Assembly: GCA_001600175.1 (NCBI GenBank)
Contig: BCJC01000004.1
Span: forward strand, 248,001 to 312,000
DNA: 64,000 nucleotides
Direction of reading: 5' to 3'
Origin: Erythrobasidium yunnanense
Taxonomy: Eukaryota > Basidiomycota > Cystobasidiomycetes > Erythrobasidiales > Erythrobasidiaceae
The translations under genes and the position numbers were made by a program. The notes below the pieces were generated by a model. The model was given only the letters and a program-made list of their open reading frames with translations, made no database searches and was not told the DNA's origin. Below, in pieces: positions 3,257 through 48,649 of this stretch (positions are counted from its first letter, which is position 1; every line of letters begins with the position of its first letter).

Positions 3257-3602
3257 AACCTGGTTCTTCTCCCGCACTTCACGATGGCAGAAATGGTTTC
3301 GCCAACAAGACAGAATGCAATATTCTCTGGTCTCCGCGTATATCACATCCAGATACGATGCTCGAAGATCTCTGGCATCTGATCATCCGCCACTTTCTAT
3401 GAAGCCCCTTATACTTCGGTGCCGCCCCACCACAAAGGCAACGGCGATATGGAGCAGCAGCCGCCGCCAGGTCTCCTGCTCTCTGTCTAGCATTGAAGCT
3501 AGCTAAGATCGCCTCAAAAGTCGCTACATTTCCCAGCTGGTCAGCTCACTCACACTGCTCCACAATACACGACCCCAAGACAGCTCGCTACGAAAGACAG
3601 CC
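3257..3602. other. spacer without convincing gene
   Basis: Spacer between the STB6-like stop and the first of four small tandem ORFs. Short ORFs here show no conserved pattern. It probably holds the 3' UTR of one gene and the promoter of the next. Confidence 0.4.
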
Positions 3603-4028
3603 ATGCCGGAAGAGACCACTACAAATAGACGAAAGTTCATGACCTACGTCGATGTAGGCCCACAAACCCATATCAGAGATCTAACATCCTGGCAGCCCCC
3701 GGCCTCAGCCAGAGTAAGCATTCGCGGACAAGGGAATTCCTCTCCCGTATGGATCAATATAAACAAGTTCAGAGACGACGGAAGACGTATCCTCGCGGTC
3801 TTACGATACGGCTTGGCCGAGAGAACGACTCCCGAAGCCTTTTCCGATAGCGAAGGAGAAGAGTCTTGGAACCAGCGTCTTGAGCCAAGAGCTTCCCTGC
3901 AGCGGAACATTGAGCTACTGAAAAGTCACTTTTACGTCAGGGAGACAACGCGTACGTGCTGGAGTTATCGTCGGAACCGCCAAGTCTCGATGAAGTCCTA
4001 CACTCTGTTGGCCCGATCGTTGCCTTAG
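3603..4028 (+). CDS. orphan small protein, tandem family member A
   Basis: I do not recognise this 141-residue, intronless protein. It has no signal peptide or membrane segment. It has the same two-part plan as the next three ORFs. The first part is a block with alternating hydrophobic residues (ARVSIRGQ..., then WININKFRDDGRRILAVLRY). After a variable acidic or serine-rich linker comes a C-terminal block (IELLKSHFYVRETT... then SYTLLARS). Spacing, length and order match the neighbours although sequence identity is low. The lack of introns is unusual here. It could be a fast-evolving effector-like or regulatory protein, but nothing shows a function. Confidence 0.5.
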   Translation: MPEETTTNRRKFMTYVDVGPQTHIRDLTSWQPPASARVSIRGQGNSSPVWININKFRDDGRRILAVLRYGLAERTTPEAFSDSEGEESWNQRLEPRASLQRNIELLKSHFYVRETTRTCWSYRRNRQVSMKSYTLLARSLP

Positions 4029-4256
4029 TTGCCGAGACTACCAGGATAGGCAATATAGTCTTTGTTACGATATCGAGCCATACTATGCTCACAGAATTAC
4101 ATCCCCCTGCTGACCGTTATGCACCTCACACAGCATGATTACAACACAACTACTCCAGTCCAAGCTCTTAACGCACCTCTGGTAGCGCCAATCTAGTCTG
4201 TGCGCTTGTGCTGTCTGATACGGCAGGCCAACGTCTGTCTCCACAAGTTCAGCTCA

Positions 4257-4703
4257 ATGCGGCATCGAGACAGACCAGCTCCCCCAGCACCGCTCCCAGT
4301 ACTTCGTTGGACAGCAGAGATAGTCAAAGTCTTTAGCAAGATGGAGTTCCAGCACCCTAAGACTGGCCTTGTGTCTGGTCCGGATCGCGTAAAGCTCGTT
4401 GACCTTTTCGACAGAACTCGCACGAGAACTGTGAAACTGGTCGACTTTTCGCCCACAGCTATCGATCCGATCGATGTCCTGAACGCTGGGAATCGCAATG
4501 CACCATGGTGGAAGGCGTCCATCGCACGCAAAGGATCCGAGTCGCGGAAACTGCTTATCAACAACATCGATACCCTGAAAAGGGACTTTTACGTGGAAGT
4601 TCGCGATCAGTCACGACAGCCGTATAGGCTTATACGCATGGCTACAGGACCGAACGAAACTCTGCCTGACTATACTTATGATCCACAACCACCTGCGTAC
4701 TGA
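4257..4703 (+). CDS. orphan small protein, tandem family member B
   Basis: About 148 residues, intronless, function unknown. I chose the ATG at 4257 because the protein then starts MRHRDRP, like MPHRNDRP of member D; an in-frame ATG at 4200 would add 19 residues. It keeps the family plan: DRVKLVDLF...TRTVKLVDFSPTAIDPIDVL in the first half, then NIDTLKRDFYVEVRDQSRQ followed by PYRLIRMATG. The FYV...YxLxR pattern is closest to member A. No targeting signal or membrane helix is seen. Confidence 0.5.
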   Translation: MRHRDRPAPPAPLPVLRWTAEIVKVFSKMEFQHPKTGLVSGPDRVKLVDLFDRTRTRTVKLVDFSPTAIDPIDVLNAGNRNAPWWKASIARKGSESRKLLINNIDTLKRDFYVEVRDQSRQPYRLIRMATGPNETLPDYTYDPQPPAY

Positions 4704-4972
4704 CGGGATGAAGACCGAAGGCTCTGATAAGGCCTGGTTTGTCCTACTTGTCTTAAACATTTATCCTTCATTCCCGATGCTTTGCAACTGGCGACACGCA
4801 AGCCGGCGATCCTAACCATAAGCAGAAAGCACTGACTCACGCACAAAGCCCCATCTCCCTTTGTGCTAAACTGCACCGCGCTTCGTGGGCTCCTCTGCAG
4901 AGGAGCTCGCACCAGCGGCAGGTTAGCATTCAACCACTATTACGAACCTCAGTATAGCACCGGAGCAACAGC

Positions 4973-5386
4973 ATGTCGTGCCAAAGCAACAGCAGACCCC
5001 CTCGTGGAGTATTCGATATCGTGGCTGTATCACTGCCTATCGCCTCTGCCGTCTCCACGGTGACGGGGCAGCCAGTGCAGCCAGCCTTGATCATCCGTCC
5101 TTCTTCCAGCACGGAATTTGAGATTCAGTTTGGGGCCTTCATCAACGAAGCCGAAATCTGGAGGGTATTAGGGATCAGTCGACCTTCATCTCGCGAGCGA
5201 CGGGCTTCAAGTAGCTCATCGGAGGACGCACGCGCAGAGACGCGGAGAGAGAGAGACAGGAGACTTGCGAGAGAGGCGAGCAACATGCGACGCCTTGTGC
5301 ACGCATATCGGGTGCAGGTGGACGAAGACGGATATGGCGAACGAGTATACACCTTGGTTCGTAGATCGCGACGCAGTGGCCGATAA
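4973..5386 (+). CDS. orphan small protein, tandem family member C
   Basis: 137 residues, intronless, unknown function. The first half (GVFDIVAVSLPIASAV..., then ALIIRPSSSTEFEIQFGAF and INEAEIWRVLGIS) aligns in spacing with members A and D. A serine- and arginine-rich linker (about residues 70-100) separates it from a C-terminal block NMRRLVHAYRVQVDEDGYG then VYTLVRRSRR. The final part is strongly basic. Nothing points to secretion or a membrane location. Confidence 0.5.
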   Translation: MSCQSNSRPPRGVFDIVAVSLPIASAVSTVTGQPVQPALIIRPSSSTEFEIQFGAFINEAEIWRVLGISRPSSRERRASSSSSEDARAETRRERDRRLAREASNMRRLVHAYRVQVDEDGYGERVYTLVRRSRRSGR

Positions 5387-5661
5387 GTGACTGTGTCAGT
5401 ATACATACTCAGAAATGGTCACTTGCGATATTCAACCTGCACCTCTACACTCAGCTCAGTCCTTACAATCCGCCATGCTCCAATCAGATTCCTCGAAAGT
5501 GTGTGACTGCAGTCAAATCCTCAAGAGTGTAGTCTAGTCACACAACTGCCTCGCGTTGATCGACAGATATTTGCACTGCCTATGGATGTCGACCTGCCGA
5601 AGTTTTCAGTCAGTGCTCCTTGCTTTCCCACCCAATCCTGCCCAGAAGTATCAGCAGACCA

Positions 5662-6087
5662 ATGCCTCATCGAAACGATAGACCTCGCTCATATGCTCAA
5701 ACCAACGTATGGACAATCATAGGGATAGAAACAGAAGTCGTTGAGCAGGACGAGACGTCACTTAGACCAACTGCCTTACGACTCTCTCTACCAGGTCGCG
5801 AAACGTTGATTGTACCTATCCACAACTTCCACGACCATGGCGATGGGATCCGTACTATGCTGGGCAGACATGCCATTGTCCCTCCGCCTCCGCCTTTTGG
5901 GTCATCAGGTGAAGTATTTAAAGCGGCTTATAGGCGAGCCGAGCAGGCTATGCGTGAACCACGCAAGCGAGAAACACGACTGAGAGCACAATGGCGAGTT
6001 TTGGTGAGAGAGCAGGAATATGGCCCTGGAGAATTTATATTGATTCCCAAACATCGCCCAGGGAGACATCGCCGAAGGAGCGTGTAG
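5662..6087 (+). CDS. orphan small protein, tandem family member D
   Basis: 141 residues from the ATG at 5662, intronless, function unknown. It has the family plan: VWTIIGIETEVVEQD, then ALRLSLPGRETLIVPIHNF and GIRTMLGRH, a proline-rich linker (PPPPPF), and the C-terminal block LRAQWRVLVREQEYGPGE then FILIPKHRPG, ending in a basic tail RHRRRS. An in-frame ATG-like start at 5620 would add 14 residues, but the chosen start matches member B. It lies 90 nt from the stop of the oppositely oriented MPP6 gene. Confidence 0.5.
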   Translation: MPHRNDRPRSYAQTNVWTIIGIETEVVEQDETSLRPTALRLSLPGRETLIVPIHNFHDHGDGIRTMLGRHAIVPPPPPFGSSGEVFKAAYRRAEQAMREPRKRETRLRAQWRVLVREQEYGPGEFILIPKHRPGRHRRRSV

Positions 6088-6177
6088 GGAGTGAGCACAT
6101 CTCCTCGGACTTGTCGACGGAGTGTAGCCAGACCATGGGTGCTAGCCAGTATTCCCTATATCGAAAGCACCTTCTCA

Positions 6178-7681: not shown

Positions 7682-8889
7682 ATGTCTACTGCATTCGCAC
7701 TATCGCCCTCAGACATGGAAGGCTTGTCCATGCATACGCTCAAAGAGCTCAAAAGCCTGGCGACCGAGCAGATCACCACTACAACGATAGCTTTCTTCCG
7801 TGAGTTACTACGTTATCAATTCCCCACGATGAACATTACCTGACTCGGCTTTTGATTGTGCCTCCAGCAACCGCTATCATCGTCTACTTTGCGATCTTGT
7901 ACTTCTCCGCCAAAGGGACAGAATTCATCTTCACTCGGCGTAGCCGGACGTACAATGACATGTCTGCTGCGAACCAACGGACGAGCGTGATCTACATCCT
8001 CAATATCTTCTTCACAACAGTTGCTCTGGCTCTGCAAATCTGTGCCAGCCCAGCTCTTGCACAAGACTATACGGAGGCGGGAACAAACTGCATCAGAGTC
8101 GCATCCGTAGTTATTGCTGGTCTGTACCTCTTCGAGATGATCTACAGAGATTCGATGCGGTGGCCTATGCTGGCCCATCATTTCTCTACGATCTTTGCGA
8201 TTTGCTTCGTGAATGTAGCCTTGGACAAGACATGGCAGTGAGCGAGATTCTCCAGACTGCGTTACGCTGAAAGCTAAAGCTTCTGCTAGCCCCGCTTTCA
8301 TTGTGACCGGTCTATGCTGGCTGTTCCAAGCTACAACCGAGCAATCCATCTTCGCTGCGCTACTCATGTGTAAGTCCACTACACTATATAATCTTTGGAT
8401 GATAGCTGAGATACTTTGCTCACCCAGACCGACTAAAGTGCAAGCCAAAGACACTCGTCACCGCCCTTCGCTTTTCTGCCATTCAGTCTTTGTGAGTCTC
8501 CTGCGTTCTTGATCACGTACTCCATCCCTGATCTCCTCTTTAGCATCCCAAAATTCGTCTTTGCGATCTACCTCCTAGTCTGGTGGGGCGAAAAGCAAAT
8601 GCACAACAAAGAACCTATGGATATCGCATTCAGCGTGATCCTCTTCGTCGCAACCTCGACTCTTCAAGTGACGCAAGTATACGGAAGTTGGGTCGTCTGG
8701 TCCATCGCTACAAAAGTCAAGCGCGACTCGCTCTCACACACTATGGATATGGAGAAGCCTGTCGGCAAATTTGAGGAAGACAAAGCCGTCATTTTGGAGA
8801 TCCCACACTTCTTAAGCCATTCGGCGAGAACAGACTCGTCGTCCAGCAGCATCACCTGCGCTGAAGACTCGCCAAAATTGGCGAAATGA
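7682..8889 (+). CDS. multi-pass membrane protein, TLC-like, tandem copy 1
   Basis: Five exons (7682-7799, 7868-8237, 8290-8369, 8428-8491, 8544-8889) give a protein of about 325 residues with roughly seven membrane helices. The N-terminal 40 residues are soluble (MSTAFALSPSDMEGL). The pattern RDSMRWPMLAHHFST, a double histidine at a helix start, resembles the TLC (TRAM-LAG1-CLN8) fold, whose members handle ceramides or other lipids. I infer the family from this alone, so it may be a separate fungal group. The C-terminal tail is soluble, serine- and acid-rich (SARTDSSSSSITC). All splice phases match copy 2 at 10096-11317. Confidence 0.7.
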
Positions 8890-10095: not shown

Positions 10096-11317
10096 ATGTC
10101 TACCTCAGTGACTCTATCGCCTTCCGACATGCAGGGGCTGTCCTTGAGTACGCTCGAGCAGCTAGAACGTCTGGCAAATGAGAAGATAACTACTTCAACC
10201 GTGGCTTTCTACCGTACGTTATTCAGGATCGACTCCTTGTCGTGGACATCATCTGAATTGCCTTGGCCATCCTAGCCACTGCTTTCATTATCTACCTCGC
10301 GATCCTATACTTCTCCGCCAAGGCAACAGAACTCATCCTCAGTCGCCTGAGTCGAATGTACAACGATATGTCTTCTGCGAATCAGCGCACAAGCGTGATC
10401 TACCTTCTCAATATCCTTTACACCACGATTGCTCTGGCCTTGCAGATCTACGCCAGTCCCGCTTTGGCAGATCGCTACACAAGCACCGGCATACACTGCG
10501 GTCTCGTAGCAGCTTCGATCGTCTCTGGACTCTACCTCTTCGAGTTGATCTACAGAGAATCGATGCGTTGGCCTATGCTGGTCCATCATTTCAGTACCAT
10601 CGGAGCGATCAGCTTTGTACTTTGCGCTCTGAGCCGGACCTGGCAGTAAGGCGAACCCATACTCCTCTCCTGTGAATGCGAGCTCAAGCTGTCTATGTTC
10701 AGCCCTGCATACATTGTCACGGGTCTCTGCTGGCTGTTCCAGGCAACAACCGAACAGTCCATCTTCGTTGGTCTTTTCATGTGTGAGTTTCTCTATCTTT
10801 GACGTTCAGCAGGAAGTATATGGAGCTCACAATGCTGGCTCACCAGACCGAATGAAGTGCAACTCAAGGACAGTCGTCGCTGTACTTCGCTTTGCGGCCA
10901 TCCAATCCTTGTAAGTCGGGCCTCCCTCCTCCCCAAAATGTGCGCTGAGAGCTTATGTGTCCATCTAGCATTCTAAAGTTTGTCTTCGCGATTTACTTGC
11001 TTGTCTGGTGGGGAGAGAAGCAGAGACACAACAAACTTCCCACAGACATCGCCTTTAACGCCATCCTCTTCATCGCGATGACAATTCTCCAAGTCACACA
11101 GGTCTATGGTAGCTGGGTCGTTTGGCGCATTGCGGACAGCGTCAAGCGAGAGTCAATTGCTCAAGCGAAAGATGCGGAGAAGGCTAGCCATACAGTACAG
11201 GAGGGCGAGAAAGGGGTCCTTGAAGTGCCGCATTTCTTGAAGCAGTCGGCTAGGACAGACTCGGACAGCAGCAGCATCACCTGCGCATCTGAGGAGTCGC
11301 CGAAGTTGACAGAATGA
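10096..11317 (+). CDS. multi-pass membrane protein, TLC-like, tandem copy 2
   Basis: Paralogue of the gene at 7682-8889, with five exons and the same intron phases. Exon 1 (10096-10213) starts MSTSVTLSPSDMQGLS, and exon 2 begins at 10276. The central block RESMRWPMLVHHFST and the stretch KFVFAIYLLVWWGEKQ are almost unchanged between copies. The C-terminal tails share SARTDS...SSSITC and end SPKLTE here, SPKLAK in copy 1. About seven membrane helices are visible. The high similarity, including part of the 5' flank, points to a fairly recent tandem duplication with both copies kept intact. The substrate is unknown and the TLC assignment is tentative. Confidence 0.7.
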
Positions 11318-43228: not shown

Positions 43229-46200
43229 TCAAGCTTCATGGACTTCCGTGGTACTGCTCTTATTAGCTTCCGCCATTGCTGCCTCTTTGAGCCTCTTAAT
43301 CGCCTCTGTCAATCACAGATCAAAAGAGAGCGTCAGCTTGATTCAGAATTGCGGGAGTTGCGATTGACGCACGAAGTCGAGTTCTCCACGTTGACGAGTA
43401 TTCAACACGTTGGCGGCCTGCTGACCGTCCTTCAACCCCTACCGATTGCAGGAAAAGCTGAGCAAAGATGTTGGCGTGAAGAGCGAGTTCGCGGACGAAA
43501 CTGGCTAGCGATTCAGTCGAAACCATCTTGAAGGCTCCAAGAGGACCAAATTCCGGCATATCAGGACGTTGCTGCAAGCTGACTCGGAAAAATTCCGTAT
43601 TGTTGGCAATGCCTGATTGTCCGCGCCATGCCTCTCCAGCCGGGGTGTGAGGCTCGATGAGGATATTCACAAAGTTGAATTGTCCAGGCAGAATATCGAA
43701 GGGAATGCGGGCCCCTGAATCGTTGTATATGATCTTGATATAGTCATTGCCGATGTGTCGTTTCTTGTATGTGCAGGTAGGATCTTCCTCGATACGCGTA
43801 GGCATCAGAGTTGCGACGTGAAAAATGATCTGTTGTATCTCGTCGGACCAGATATACGCCCATTTGCCATCAAAGTCCATCTCTCGGTCAAGTCCACCGG
43901 TGCTGTGAGGGTAGCCTTGCAGACGTGTAATAACGCCTAGACGTTGAAGGAACTCCATGTAGCCTCGGCTTCCGTGTATGTTACGCAGAATGTCTTCCTC
44001 CGTCTTCTGATTGGCACCAACGTACAGTACACCTATCTTATGGAAGTCGATGTGAGGCATGGTATCCAAGACTGAGATACTACGCTTAGCCTGGCCAGAC
44101 TCTTGCACCGCAAGAGGGCGTCCATGAGCATTGATATGACTATGAGGAGGGAGGAAAAGAGAGAAGAAAGACGGATCTGCGTCAAAGATCGGGGCCAGTT
44201 CGTGCGCCGGGTAGTCTATCTGAATCGAAGCAGGTATTTGCAGTCGGTTTCGGTTTGCTAACAGAAGTTGCAAGATATCGACTTCGGATTGCGGCTTGTC
44301 GAGCGTTACGGTCGCCTTCAAGACTCCCGAAGCGCGCCGGATCGTGACTTGCGCTTCTTCCGCCTTCTCGATTCCTTCGAGAGTGATCACGGACTGGCCG
44401 CATACCCAGCTTCGGCTGTATGCTCTCCCTTGTTCGCGGTTCCGGTTTTGCGAATGTGAAGCTCCGTTCTGTCCCGCTGGCAGGCCGTATGCAAGCCTAG
44501 CCAGCATATCTAGAGACACTTGTGCGGCCGGATCCACTTCAGACTGATCATCCTTCGCTTGCGGTAGTCGCCTGACCAGGAAGCTGGTATAGCGTGCCCG
44601 CTCGCTCGGCGGAACTATCGTGTACCAAAGTGCTATAACGTAATATGACAGCAGGAAGACGTATTGCTTGAAGGCTTGGCTCGTAGCCTTGGAAAGGTCC
44701 TCAGGAGAAGCTTCGCTGGTAGGTTCATCTGCCAGACTATCATAGTGCGACGAAAGATACTGTGCAGCCAGCGCGAAAACCTTCTTATAATCGTCTTCAG
44801 TGAAGTTGGCGTACAGTGATCTTATGTGACCGATGGAAGCGACAAGTTCCAGAATATGGACAGGCATATTGACGGTGCTCATGATGCGGACAAGCGAATT
44901 GAGGATTTCGGGCAGATACTTCGACATTGAGCTTTCGAACTCGTAACATGCCATTAACAAGGCGTGTATGCATTGTTTGGCGATAGATGGCGTCCGAGAA
45001 AGACCTTGCAAGAACGTAAGGACGGTCTCATTCTGCGCCTCTCGGTTATACAGATCACGGTAGGCAATCAGGGTTGCCAGCCACTGATACGCTATCGTAT
45101 GCATGTCACTTCTGCGGACATTTTGTGGCAGTTTGACTTGTTCACACAAGGCCTCTTTTGAGAGTTTCTCGCACAGCAGGCTCCGAAGAATGATGAGTTG
45201 GCGAGCGCACTCTGGCCCACACGCATAGTGCTTGTTCGACAGCTGGTTCGGGACTGCACATAGGATATATGAGATGAGCTCCCATTCGACCTCATACTCC
45301 AAGCACTCGATGAGGACTTCGAGGTAGTCCGAAACCCTCAGGACGATAAGGTCTGGCCCTTCAGAAGGTCCAGATTCACCGGAATAGTTGGGCTCTGTTT
45401 CAGCAGTGGCTTCTGTCCAATCCCTCATTCGGATATGATCGAACGAGACAAGTCCGGCAAAGCCGACGCCTTTGACTGGCTTGGACGGGAAAGTATAGAG
45501 GAGATGATCTGGGCATGTCCACAATAGCGACGGCTGCCTGCTCGGAGACTGAGGGTTGGAGGCCCTAGTCCTACTACGACTTGTGCCTGTTTGTGGTCTA
45601 GAGTTGGATTTCTCGGATTCCAGATTCTCCCGCCGGGCTGTACGCCTGCCCCTGTCTACCTCGCTGTGCGTGTCACCAACACGATGACCAGCGCTACGCT
45701 GCTGCCCATCAGCCGCCAATCTACCGATACTGGCTGCCAGAGTATCCATCTCGAGATGTTGACGAGACCAGATGCGATGACGCTGATCAGCGCGAAGTCT
45801 CGCTAAGCATTGTAGTACCGCCAATCTCGTTCTTACAGGCGCCGTGCGAGCTTCAGCGCTTCCGGGTTTAGCAGGCTGAAGCAGATTGAGTAGGTGATGA
45901 AAGATACGGACGGCAAGTCTGGCTCCGCTCCTATCGGCTAATATGATACATTGTAGTAGGAGAGAAATGAGGGTTTGAGTTGCCGCTAGGCTGATTCCCG
46001 TAGGTTGACCGGAAGCCTGTTGACGGGAAGAGCCCCTCGCTGGCGACCGTGTGCTTGCCCTTGTGCCTTCTCGAGGTGTCTTGTCGGCCTTGCCGACTTC
46101 CGGGGACGGTAGCCATGTCAGACTTTCGACGAGAGATAGTACATTTTGCATGCAAGTCTGTATACGTGCTTCTAGCTCGGTGCGAGTCGTCAGACAGTCT

Positions 46201-48454
46201 TTGACGAAGAGCTGCATAAGCGACAAAGAGGTTGTAATAACCGTTTCGTCTTGCTCGATCGGTAAGGTCCTTTCGAAGAAGGGAATCATGACCTGTTCCA
46301 CCAAGTCAGCTGTCCACATAGGATAGCCATGAGCAGCGCCGTAAGCGTCCTGAAGTGTTTCAAGAGCAGTCCTCCGGCTGTGTTTCACCGATTCCCGCAG
46401 CACGCTATACGGCACCGCCGGGAAGAAGGTCTCTAGAACCATCTTTACTCGATCGAGCCAGTCTGATCGACCAGGGGAAGCGAGCATACGGGTCTTGAAG
46501 AATCCGAAGAAGGTCTGAATGAAGGAAACGCTCAAATGACGGGCTATCGAGAGCATGAAGTCGAAGTATCGCAGATGCGAGCCGGTGAAGAACTCGTGCG
46601 CCTGAGCCGAGATCATGCGGTGTATGACGAGTGAGAAGCTGTCCAACACAGGCAGGATAGAAACCTGTTTCGGAGCTTCGATACCAGGAGACACGGGCGG
46701 AGCTGTCGATAGTGTAGCTGGAGCTATGCCAGCCTTCATGCCCTCGAATACGGAACTATGTGGTGATGCTGACGATGACATCAGTCAACTGGACAAGCGA
46801 TGGGTGAGTGAGCCATGAACGAACCTATCGCCCCCACGTCCACACTCCAAGTTTGTCCTACGCTCTCTTCCCACGCTTGGATTCGCCAGACTAGCTTCTC
46901 TACTATGGAAATCACCATCTCCCATTCTTCAAAAGTCAGGTGAGTTTTCTTGCTTTGGTGAGCGGCAAACCTCTCCTCTAGGAATAGCAATACTTCGGAA
47001 TCTATCTCACTGGACCGCCAATGCAGTACATCAAGTAAATTTTGGTGCAGGAGAGTCATGCCTGTAGAGAGGAGGGAAGGATAGCGATCATTGGGGCGGT
47101 CCCCTTCGCCCATGAAAGCCGAGCTGGACCCCTCGTGGTCGATGAATGCTCGTCTCAGACAACGTATAGTGCCGACTAGCAAGGGAGTCTGGCATCTAGC
47201 TTGTCCAGATGCGGACTTGGGAGATGCCGAAAGTGTTGCCCTCAGACATCGTAAGGCCTGATTGGCTGACGAGCGAAGTAAATTGCGCATCACTCTGGAT
47301 GCCAACTCTTTGAACGTTTCTGACAATTCTCCTTCCTTCTTCTGCCCGTCGGTCGAGATCGTGTAGACCTTGCATCGACCTTCCAGACCGGCAGCGCGCG
47401 CAACGAACTTGACGACATCTTCAATCTGGTCGGTCGGAATGTAGCCAAATTTGACTATGGTATCGACAAGCTCCAGGACTTTGATAACTTCGTATTCTCC
47501 CAGGTTCCGGAATGCGCGATCTACGAAAGTCTTCAATAGTAGAGAGACATGCGCAGGTGGTATTCCAGGGAAAGAGTAACGATGACAAGCTATCATCAAA
47601 GACGCCGGCGAGGCTTTGGGATCTTGAGTGAAATGGAAAGATTGGACTGGGATCGTGATGAAAGGCGTAGAGAAGGTTGGATCCAGGAGCGGTGAAGTAG
47701 CAGAGCTCAGGTCGACATTCTTGAGACGCTCAGCATTGCGAACAGCCGTCATCGCGAGGGCTATTTTGAGCAGAAACGGCACCAGATCTTCCAGGCCCGA
47801 TACATCTCTGCCGCCTCTAGTCAAGGTTTCTATGACGAAGACCAAAGACTGCATCTCGAGGATGGACATGTCTTTCCTGCTCTCGAAGTATCTCTGTATG
47901 GCGACATAGTATGTGGCCCGCTCGAAGGAATAGCCAAGCTCGGAAACGCTATCGTTGAGGACCTCCACGCAAGCCTTGAGTAAATCGACTCCTGCATTGC
48001 GTACTTCCGGAGGCCGATAGGGTTCCAGTAAGTGCGAACATGTTTGCCAGATCTCCGCCAGATCAGCTGCCGTATCGATTCGCACGGTGTTGGCTAGCTT
48101 CTTCGCTAACAGTACTTGTTGCTGTACATCTGATGTTGTATTCAAGCTTGAAGCGACACTCGCGGCAGACCAAGAGGAGCCATAGAGCAATGAGTTCGGC
48201 TGCTGAACGGCATTCGCTACTACTGAGCTTTTGCTGGCCTGAGTCAACAAGCTCGATAGCTTGCTCTCAGCGCTTTCTTGCTTTGCTGCGGGTGTCGATA
48301 CTGGACTGCCAGATGCTCCGGTGAAGTTCGAAGAAGACCTCGCTCGACCTCCTAGGTTACGCAGGAATCCGCCAAAGTTGCGAGAAGCTTGTTGAGGACC
48401 AGGATTGCTGTTCGCTCCGCCAGAGCTCGTGTAGGCGCGAACATGGTCGGGCAT
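43229..48454 (-). CDS. TSC2: tuberin (TSC2), Rheb GTPase-activating protein
   Basis: Tuberin pairs with hamartin and switches off the GTPase Rheb, restraining TORC1. The N-terminal ATG (48454, MPDHVRAYTSSGG) leads into a helical-repeat body of more than 1,000 residues containing the DUF3384- and tuberin-type regions (LAEIWQTCSHLLEPYRPPEV and onward). An intron at about 46728-46800 splices VDVGAI to ASPHSSVFEGM; without it the gene looks split in two. The RapGAP domain near the C-terminus reads GGLDREMDFDGKWAYIW, then KKRHIGNDYIKIIYND with the catalytic Asn thumb in HIGND, and PGQFNFVNILIEPHTP. A last intron joins WRTRL to QAIKRLKEAAMAEANKSS and the stop at 43229-43231. The total is about 1,690 residues, close to the family's usual size. 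Confidence 0.9.
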
Positions 48455-48649
48455 GTCGAGTTACCGACTTTCGACTCGCTTATTTGGGTCACAGATCCAG
48501 CAGGGATTGGTTCGCGCGGTCGATGCTAGCGTAGATCCATTATGTAGGTGTCAAGTGAAGCCTCTTTGTGGTCACAAAATTGCGAGACAAGTGGATTGAG
48601 CGGAGTCGACCTTGCATTTTGGCCTGTTTTCGACGTATCAATACCAAAG

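Follow-up and report, generated by a model that had tools for sequence, protein, structure and literature searches.

Four tandem small open reading frames in Erythrobasidium yunnanense as a possible, strongly diverged and undescribed gene family

A run of four small open reading frames (ORFs), here designated A to D, was found on the plus strand of a 64,000-nucleotide stretch of the basidiomycete Erythrobasidium yunnanense (assembly GCA_001600175.1, contig BCJC01000004.1, positions 248,001 to 312,000; contig C4 of a 20.9-Mb genome comprising 10 contigs), and this whole stretch, whose positions are used throughout, is called the window. On balance, the sequence comparisons described below favour the view that one ancestral gene gave rise to an undescribed tandem family of four members by duplication and divergence. 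A to D probably constitute a lineage-restricted gene family, whose proteins would be small, very basic, soluble and of the alpha/beta type, with one member conserved and the others diverged. The four ORFs are the following.

ORF A: 3603-4028, plus strand, 141 residues, isoelectric point (pI) 10.2; residues 1-118 gave no homologue
ORF B: 4257-4703, plus strand, 148 residues, pI 10.0; the conserved member, with the homologue P0001
ORF C: 4973-5386, plus strand, 137 residues, pI 11.2; linker rich in R, S and E; weakest coding evidence of the four
ORF D: 5662-6087, plus strand, 141 residues, pI 11.1; C-terminal tail basic; search for homologues negative

The preliminary description of this DNA had reported four successive plus-strand ATG ORFs, which were recovered in full, with lengths of 141, 148, 137 and 141 residues. 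They follow each other in tandem on the same strand with similar lengths (137-148 residues) and a similar spacing, the gaps A/B, B/C and C/D measuring 228, 269 and 275 bases and the successive start-to-start distances 654, 716 and 689 bases. No minus-strand ORF of at least 137 residues was found in 3257-6090. When this region was subjected to 2000 dinucleotide shuffles and plus-strand ORFs of at least 137 residues were counted, the mean was 0.094, at least two such ORFs occurred in 5 of the 2000 shuffles and at least three in none. The run of four is beyond chance expectation. All four had also been described as intronless. In B, C and D, no combination of consensus donor, branch site and acceptor was detected by an intron scan of limited sensitivity (it recovered only 2 introns in a neighbouring multi-exon gene). 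In A, the scan returned two overlapping candidates (3654-3708/3712) whose lengths would shift the frame and which are probably due to chance. Short intron candidates (n=86) had a median length of 61 bases.

B certainly looks like a real, constrained gene. Among 5.8 billion proteins, searched with B, D and residues 1-118 of A, one homologue of B was identified among 18 candidates (E=8.5e-41; 131 residues aligned with 60% identity and a single gap). This protein, P0001, is a JGI (Joint Genome Institute) metagenome protein of 150 residues annotated as 'hypothetical protein'. Identity between the two peaks in residues 18-90 (52/73) and is lower in the helix and hairpin of residues 91-131 (17/41). 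P0001 further resembles B in its length, in its basic start and in the place of a C-terminal block described below; it is a single sequence lacking context, function or a Pfam domain above cut-off, and it has no close similarity to A, C or D, aligning only weakly, though in register, with A and with C. At E<=10, the same search gave no homologue for D (16 candidates) or for residues 1-118 of A (4 candidates). Within their own genome, A, B, C and D each matched only themselves, and no homologue was found in viral contigs searched with B+P0001, D+C and A or in prokaryote genomes searched with B+P0001.

None of the four exceeded the curated cut-off of any Pfam or NCBIfam family; the best family E-values were 0.037 (Pfam), 0.031 (NCBIfam, 14 of 128 bits) and 0.065 (PHROGs), and for these three libraries the earlier remark that no known family came to mind was upheld. 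When the Protein Data Bank (PDB) was searched by sequence, neither B+P0001 nor any of A, C, D and P0001 alone gave an E below 0.1. With five-row profiles, E-values of 0.005-0.06 were obtained solely for engineered proteins having a generic helix-strand stretch in common, and a short five-row profile gave nothing below 0.5. A literature search on arrays of this sort yielded no match by title or abstract start, which is no proof of absence from print. An A-P-W-W motif was observed in B (residues 82-85) and in P0001. In P0001 it belongs to an A-P-W-W-P motif within residues 76-102, which matched the PWWP domain (PF00855) with E=0.037 and 15 bits, below the curated cut-off of 25.6 bits; B had no PWWP match at E<=5, and A, C and D are devoid of the motif.

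The relationship among the ORFs was assessed by Smith-Waterman (SW) scores compared with those of 193 control ATG ORFs of 110-190 residues, drawn from the window plus 200 kb of this genome; counts are given as two values where they differ by which protein is the query. The A-B score of 51 was matched or exceeded by none of the 193 controls, and the C-D score of 45 by 0 or 1. The remaining pairs with elevated scores were A-D (41; 2 or 3 controls), C-P0001 (42, in register; 4 or 5), A-P0001 (38; 8 or 10) and A-C (36; 12 or 23). We conclude that A and B are related, and that C and D, as well as A and D, are probably related. Moreover, the best local alignments of A-B, A-C, A-D, C-D, A-P0001 and C-P0001 keep the register of the start codon within 2 residues, as was seen in 3.7% of 6000 random pairs. 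Four in-register pairs of six, the number found for A to D, occurred in none of 4000 random quartets and three such pairs in 4, and the summed score of A to D was reached by 8 of the 4000. Measured by register and summed score, the four as a set are more alike than expected by chance.

The ranks obtained with profiles were mixed. The preliminary description had named the lack of any significant profile match among the four as a result that would refute it; such a match was obtained with hhalign, in which B+P0001 matched A in register (E=5.6e-4 for that single comparison); C+D against A gave E=0.084. In scans of 3942 open segments of the genome, the B+P0001 profile ranked A as the best of the 3941 other segments, yet only at E=0.17, and with single-member profiles A and B each ranked the other second, the C profile ranked D third and the D profile ranked C eighth. 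E was above 0.1 for all of these single-member and B+P0001 ranks. When D was added to B+P0001, C came first and A third among non-members, and the A+B+P0001 profile put C second.

The shared plan is most evident in two short blocks, which were searched as patterns in the same 193 control ORFs. The C-terminal block (C-block), written as a regular expression, starts at residues 110, 111, 112, 111 and 110 in A, B, C, D and P0001, respectively, and was found in 1 of the 193 controls; it is common to all four ORFs, as had been proposed, and extends to P0001. The N-terminal block (N-block), F-x(5-8)-I-x2-[VM]L, is present in A, C and D, with a longer form starting at residue 51 that occurred in 1 of the 193 controls. 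It is missing from B and P0001, where the spacing reads, by eye, I-x-VL and I-VL, so that this part of the proposed plan applies to three members and not, as written, to B. A start of the form M..R..RP was found in B, D and P0001 and in 3 of the 193 controls, which agrees with the related starts noted earlier for B and D. The blocks are located as follows, together with a 32-nucleotide stretch in which A and B resemble each other at the DNA level.

N-block of A: 3753-3803, plus strand, residues 51-67
N-block equivalent of B: 4431-4481, plus strand, residues 59-75; off-pattern spacing, placed by eye
N-block of C: 5123-5170, plus strand, residues 51-66
N-block of D: 5812-5862, plus strand, residues 51-67
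C-block of A: 3930-4007, plus strand, residues 110-135, with a long loop
C-block of B: 4587-4631, plus strand, residues 111-125
C-block of C: 5306-5356, plus strand, residues 112-128
C-block of D: 5992-6042, plus strand, residues 111-127
32-nucleotide stretch of A: 3906-3937, plus strand, 78% identical to 4563-4594; encodes N-I-x-x-L-K-x-x-F-Y-V
Matching stretch of B: 4563-4594, plus strand, similar in DNA to 3906-3937

A resemblance of the N-block of D to BTB/Skp1 and one of the C-block of B to BirA were considered; neither obtained tool support, and both were discarded.

Several results weigh against a single family of four. The B-C and B-D alignments are at chance, in the mid-range of the controls, so that significant similarity does not extend to each pair, and the D-P0001 score ranks below both. 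The hhalign comparison of C+D with B+P0001 gave only E=0.14, D was not listed by the A+B+P0001 profile, and a scan with B+P0001 placed D at rank 847 and C at 14th. When each member in turn was withheld from the profile of the others, A ranked 36, C 16 and D 447 among 3942 segments, members included; B, with P0001 withheld as well, ranked 185. The DNA similarity between the ORFs is at chance for 4 of the 6 pairs. The block patterns were derived from these same sequences, so their rarity among the controls overstates their significance. The AlphaFold models of B and D, built from two-row alignments, have a mean predicted local distance difference test (pLDDT) of 38.8 and 43.2, respectively, which is below usable confidence and too poor for a comparison of folds. 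As to charge, none of the four has a pI below 9.98, and that of P0001 is 9.83, a level of at least 9.8 being reached by 13% of 45 long ORFs; it is also reached by 36% of 197 ORFs of 110-190 residues, the four included, so that basicity says little. Short ORFs are often basic here. In addition, the coding scores were uneven under a hexamer model trained on 81 long open frames, in a genome whose coding bias is weak. C scored slightly better on the opposite strand (-0.158 vs -0.184), the codon score alone made the annotated frame the best in B only, and the gaps between the ORFs had scores comparable to those of A and C. By hexamers, B and D were best in their own frames (0.005 vs -0.215 for the next frame and -0.057 vs -0.181, respectively), and A was mixed, its first part being best in frame and the whole slightly better in another frame. 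These contrary coding scores weigh slightly against the family and in favour of chance ORFs.

The end of A deserves separate mention. An open frame in another phase overlaps it (3914-4135), and from 3954 to 4136, after the helix of A, both codon and hexamer scores are better in another phase than in the frame of A. This other-phase frame may be an exon, a frame change or a coincidence. An intron or frame change in A was considered. For the donor-like GTACGT at 3952, no acceptor with branch site was found at intron lengths of 35-139 bases. When the tail of A was replaced by that of the other frame, the score of A against the B+P0001 profile dropped from 9.8 to 6.6-6.8 bits, a difference of about 3 bits that lies within the spread of shuffled tails (median 6.9 bits, 10.1 at 95%). 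The in-frame alignment of A with B runs on ungapped, and we lean towards keeping the ORF of A as annotated.

Two other explanations concern the unity of the array itself. The four ORFs could be two side-by-side tandem pairs, A-B and C-D, instead of one family. These are indeed the two top-scoring pairs (SW 51 and 45), C+D and B+P0001 scarcely recognized each other (the E of 0.14 given above), and the C+D profile ranked B at 557. Such a division is nevertheless crossed by A-D and A-C, which are also in register, the former with a score that only 2-3 of the 193 controls attain, by the in-register C-P0001 alignment (SW 42, 4-5 controls) and by the common position of the C-block, and we hold it to be unlikely. 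It could also be argued that B is a true gene and that at least one among A, C and D is a chance frame or a decaying copy, since among A, B and D, the ORFs searched, a homologue exists for B alone, the codon score favours the own frame in B only, the hexamer score of C is no better than antisense, and the segment following the helix of A scores best in another frame. This account would have to face the absence of three or more ORFs of this size from all 2000 shuffles, the hexamer score of D, which favours the annotated frame over all others, and the lower B+P0001 match upon swapping the tail of A, small as that difference is; it seems rather improbable. Tandem diverged paralogues, as first proposed, remain the best reading of the array. 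The set-level similarity and the A-B match at E=5.6e-4 bear it out, and B-C and B-D at chance and the mixed profile ranks detract from it.

Two further proposals concern the nature of the proteins. A winged-helix-like nucleic-acid-binding domain might be predicted, with N-[IM]-x-x-L in the recognition helix and the C-terminal hairpin as wing. The low-confidence D model contains three strands, two helices of at least 4 residues and two strands, and this E-E-E-H-H-E-E order would suit such a domain, as would the high pI. Moreover, 2 of the 5 PDB matches of the B+P0001 profile (E<=10) are NSE1, a subunit of SMC5/6 whose N-I helix and Y-A-L-V hairpin weakly resemble the profile at the helix-hairpin stretch, which we take to be a winged helix in NSE1. 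On the other hand, the NSE1 match has E=1.6 overall, which is chance level, and 160-180 for the stretch itself; NSE1 has 238-266 residues against 148 and 150 in B and P0001, and, unlike NSE1, these two carry no RING domain according to Pfam. With two profiles built on the C-terminal part, 5 and 14 matches were obtained, none of them recognizable by name as a winged-helix protein; no Pfam helix-turn-helix match was found for A-D at E<=5 or for P0001 at E<=10, and the B and D models are too poor to judge. We regard the winged-helix proposal as unlikely. The low-confidence B model has strands followed by a long helix (95-111), and an N-terminal helix (15-26) not present in D. With Foldseek, both poor models gave a best E of 0.96, at noise level, and no fold common to the two appeared among the best 50 of 109 matches for D and all 22 for B. 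Secreted or membrane-anchored small proteins are suggested by C alone, whose residues 12-30 form a hydrophobic stretch (mean hydropathy 1.76 over 19 residues, 2.07 over 15). Such a stretch is absent from A, B, D and P0001, with maximum 15-residue means of 0.43-0.96, and in C the stretch is aligned to one of the strands in the low-confidence D model. Secretion or anchoring seems very improbable.

Under the favoured reading of one tandem family, a single small intronless gene would have been duplicated in tandem, and its copies would have diverged until mainly a positional plan was left. In this plan, strands and an F...I..(V/M)L segment at about residues 51-67 would come first; after a linker that varies, there would follow a helix, which in A, B and C reads, by eye, N-[IM]-x-x-L-x-x-x-aromatic, and, at residue 110, a C-terminal hairpin. 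With its conserved N-terminal half, B would probably be the copy nearest to the ancestral working gene, and the shared helix-hairpin might act as a scaffold on which the N-terminal half and the linker set the partner of each member. Since the proteins are probably soluble, measure 15-17 kDa and have a pI of 10-11, intracellular binding of nucleic acid or of an acidic protein partner would be the simplest guess for their function. More speculatively, and with little probability in our estimate, they could form a basic nucleic-acid-binding family with a winged-helix-like helix-hairpin scaffold that diversifies rapidly in one lineage, B being conserved and the other three re-tuned to new targets.

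The array is of a kind already known, that of lineage-restricted tandem families. In general, orphan tandem families of fungi also consist of short and strongly diverged tandem copies without a recognised domain; unlike them, this array includes one member that is clearly related to a protein of another organism. A review is available (PMC12684174). Provided that the family is real, it would offer tandem paralogues at the edge of sequence detectability, with B as a conserved anchor for tracing the others, and rapid divergence could be tested at one locus against a non-coding origin of orphans.

Elsewhere in the window, a second tandem pair, formed by two multi-exon genes, was observed at about 7682-8889 and 10096-11317 (ends by eye). 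The first gene has a weak match to the TLC domain (PF03798), below cut-off. Unlike the A-D array, this pair is easily aligned, the compared exons being 70% identical, and a third copy of the gene, with 66% identity, lies at G000:C7:841524-841793. The gene content also includes a TRPY1-type channel, which, like the short intron candidates, points to a fungal genome, and the following gene.

Tuberin/RapGAP (TSC2-like) gene: 43323-48460, minus strand; Pfam match for 43323-46784

The adjoining long open frame at 46784-48460 may be the other part of this TSC2-like gene.
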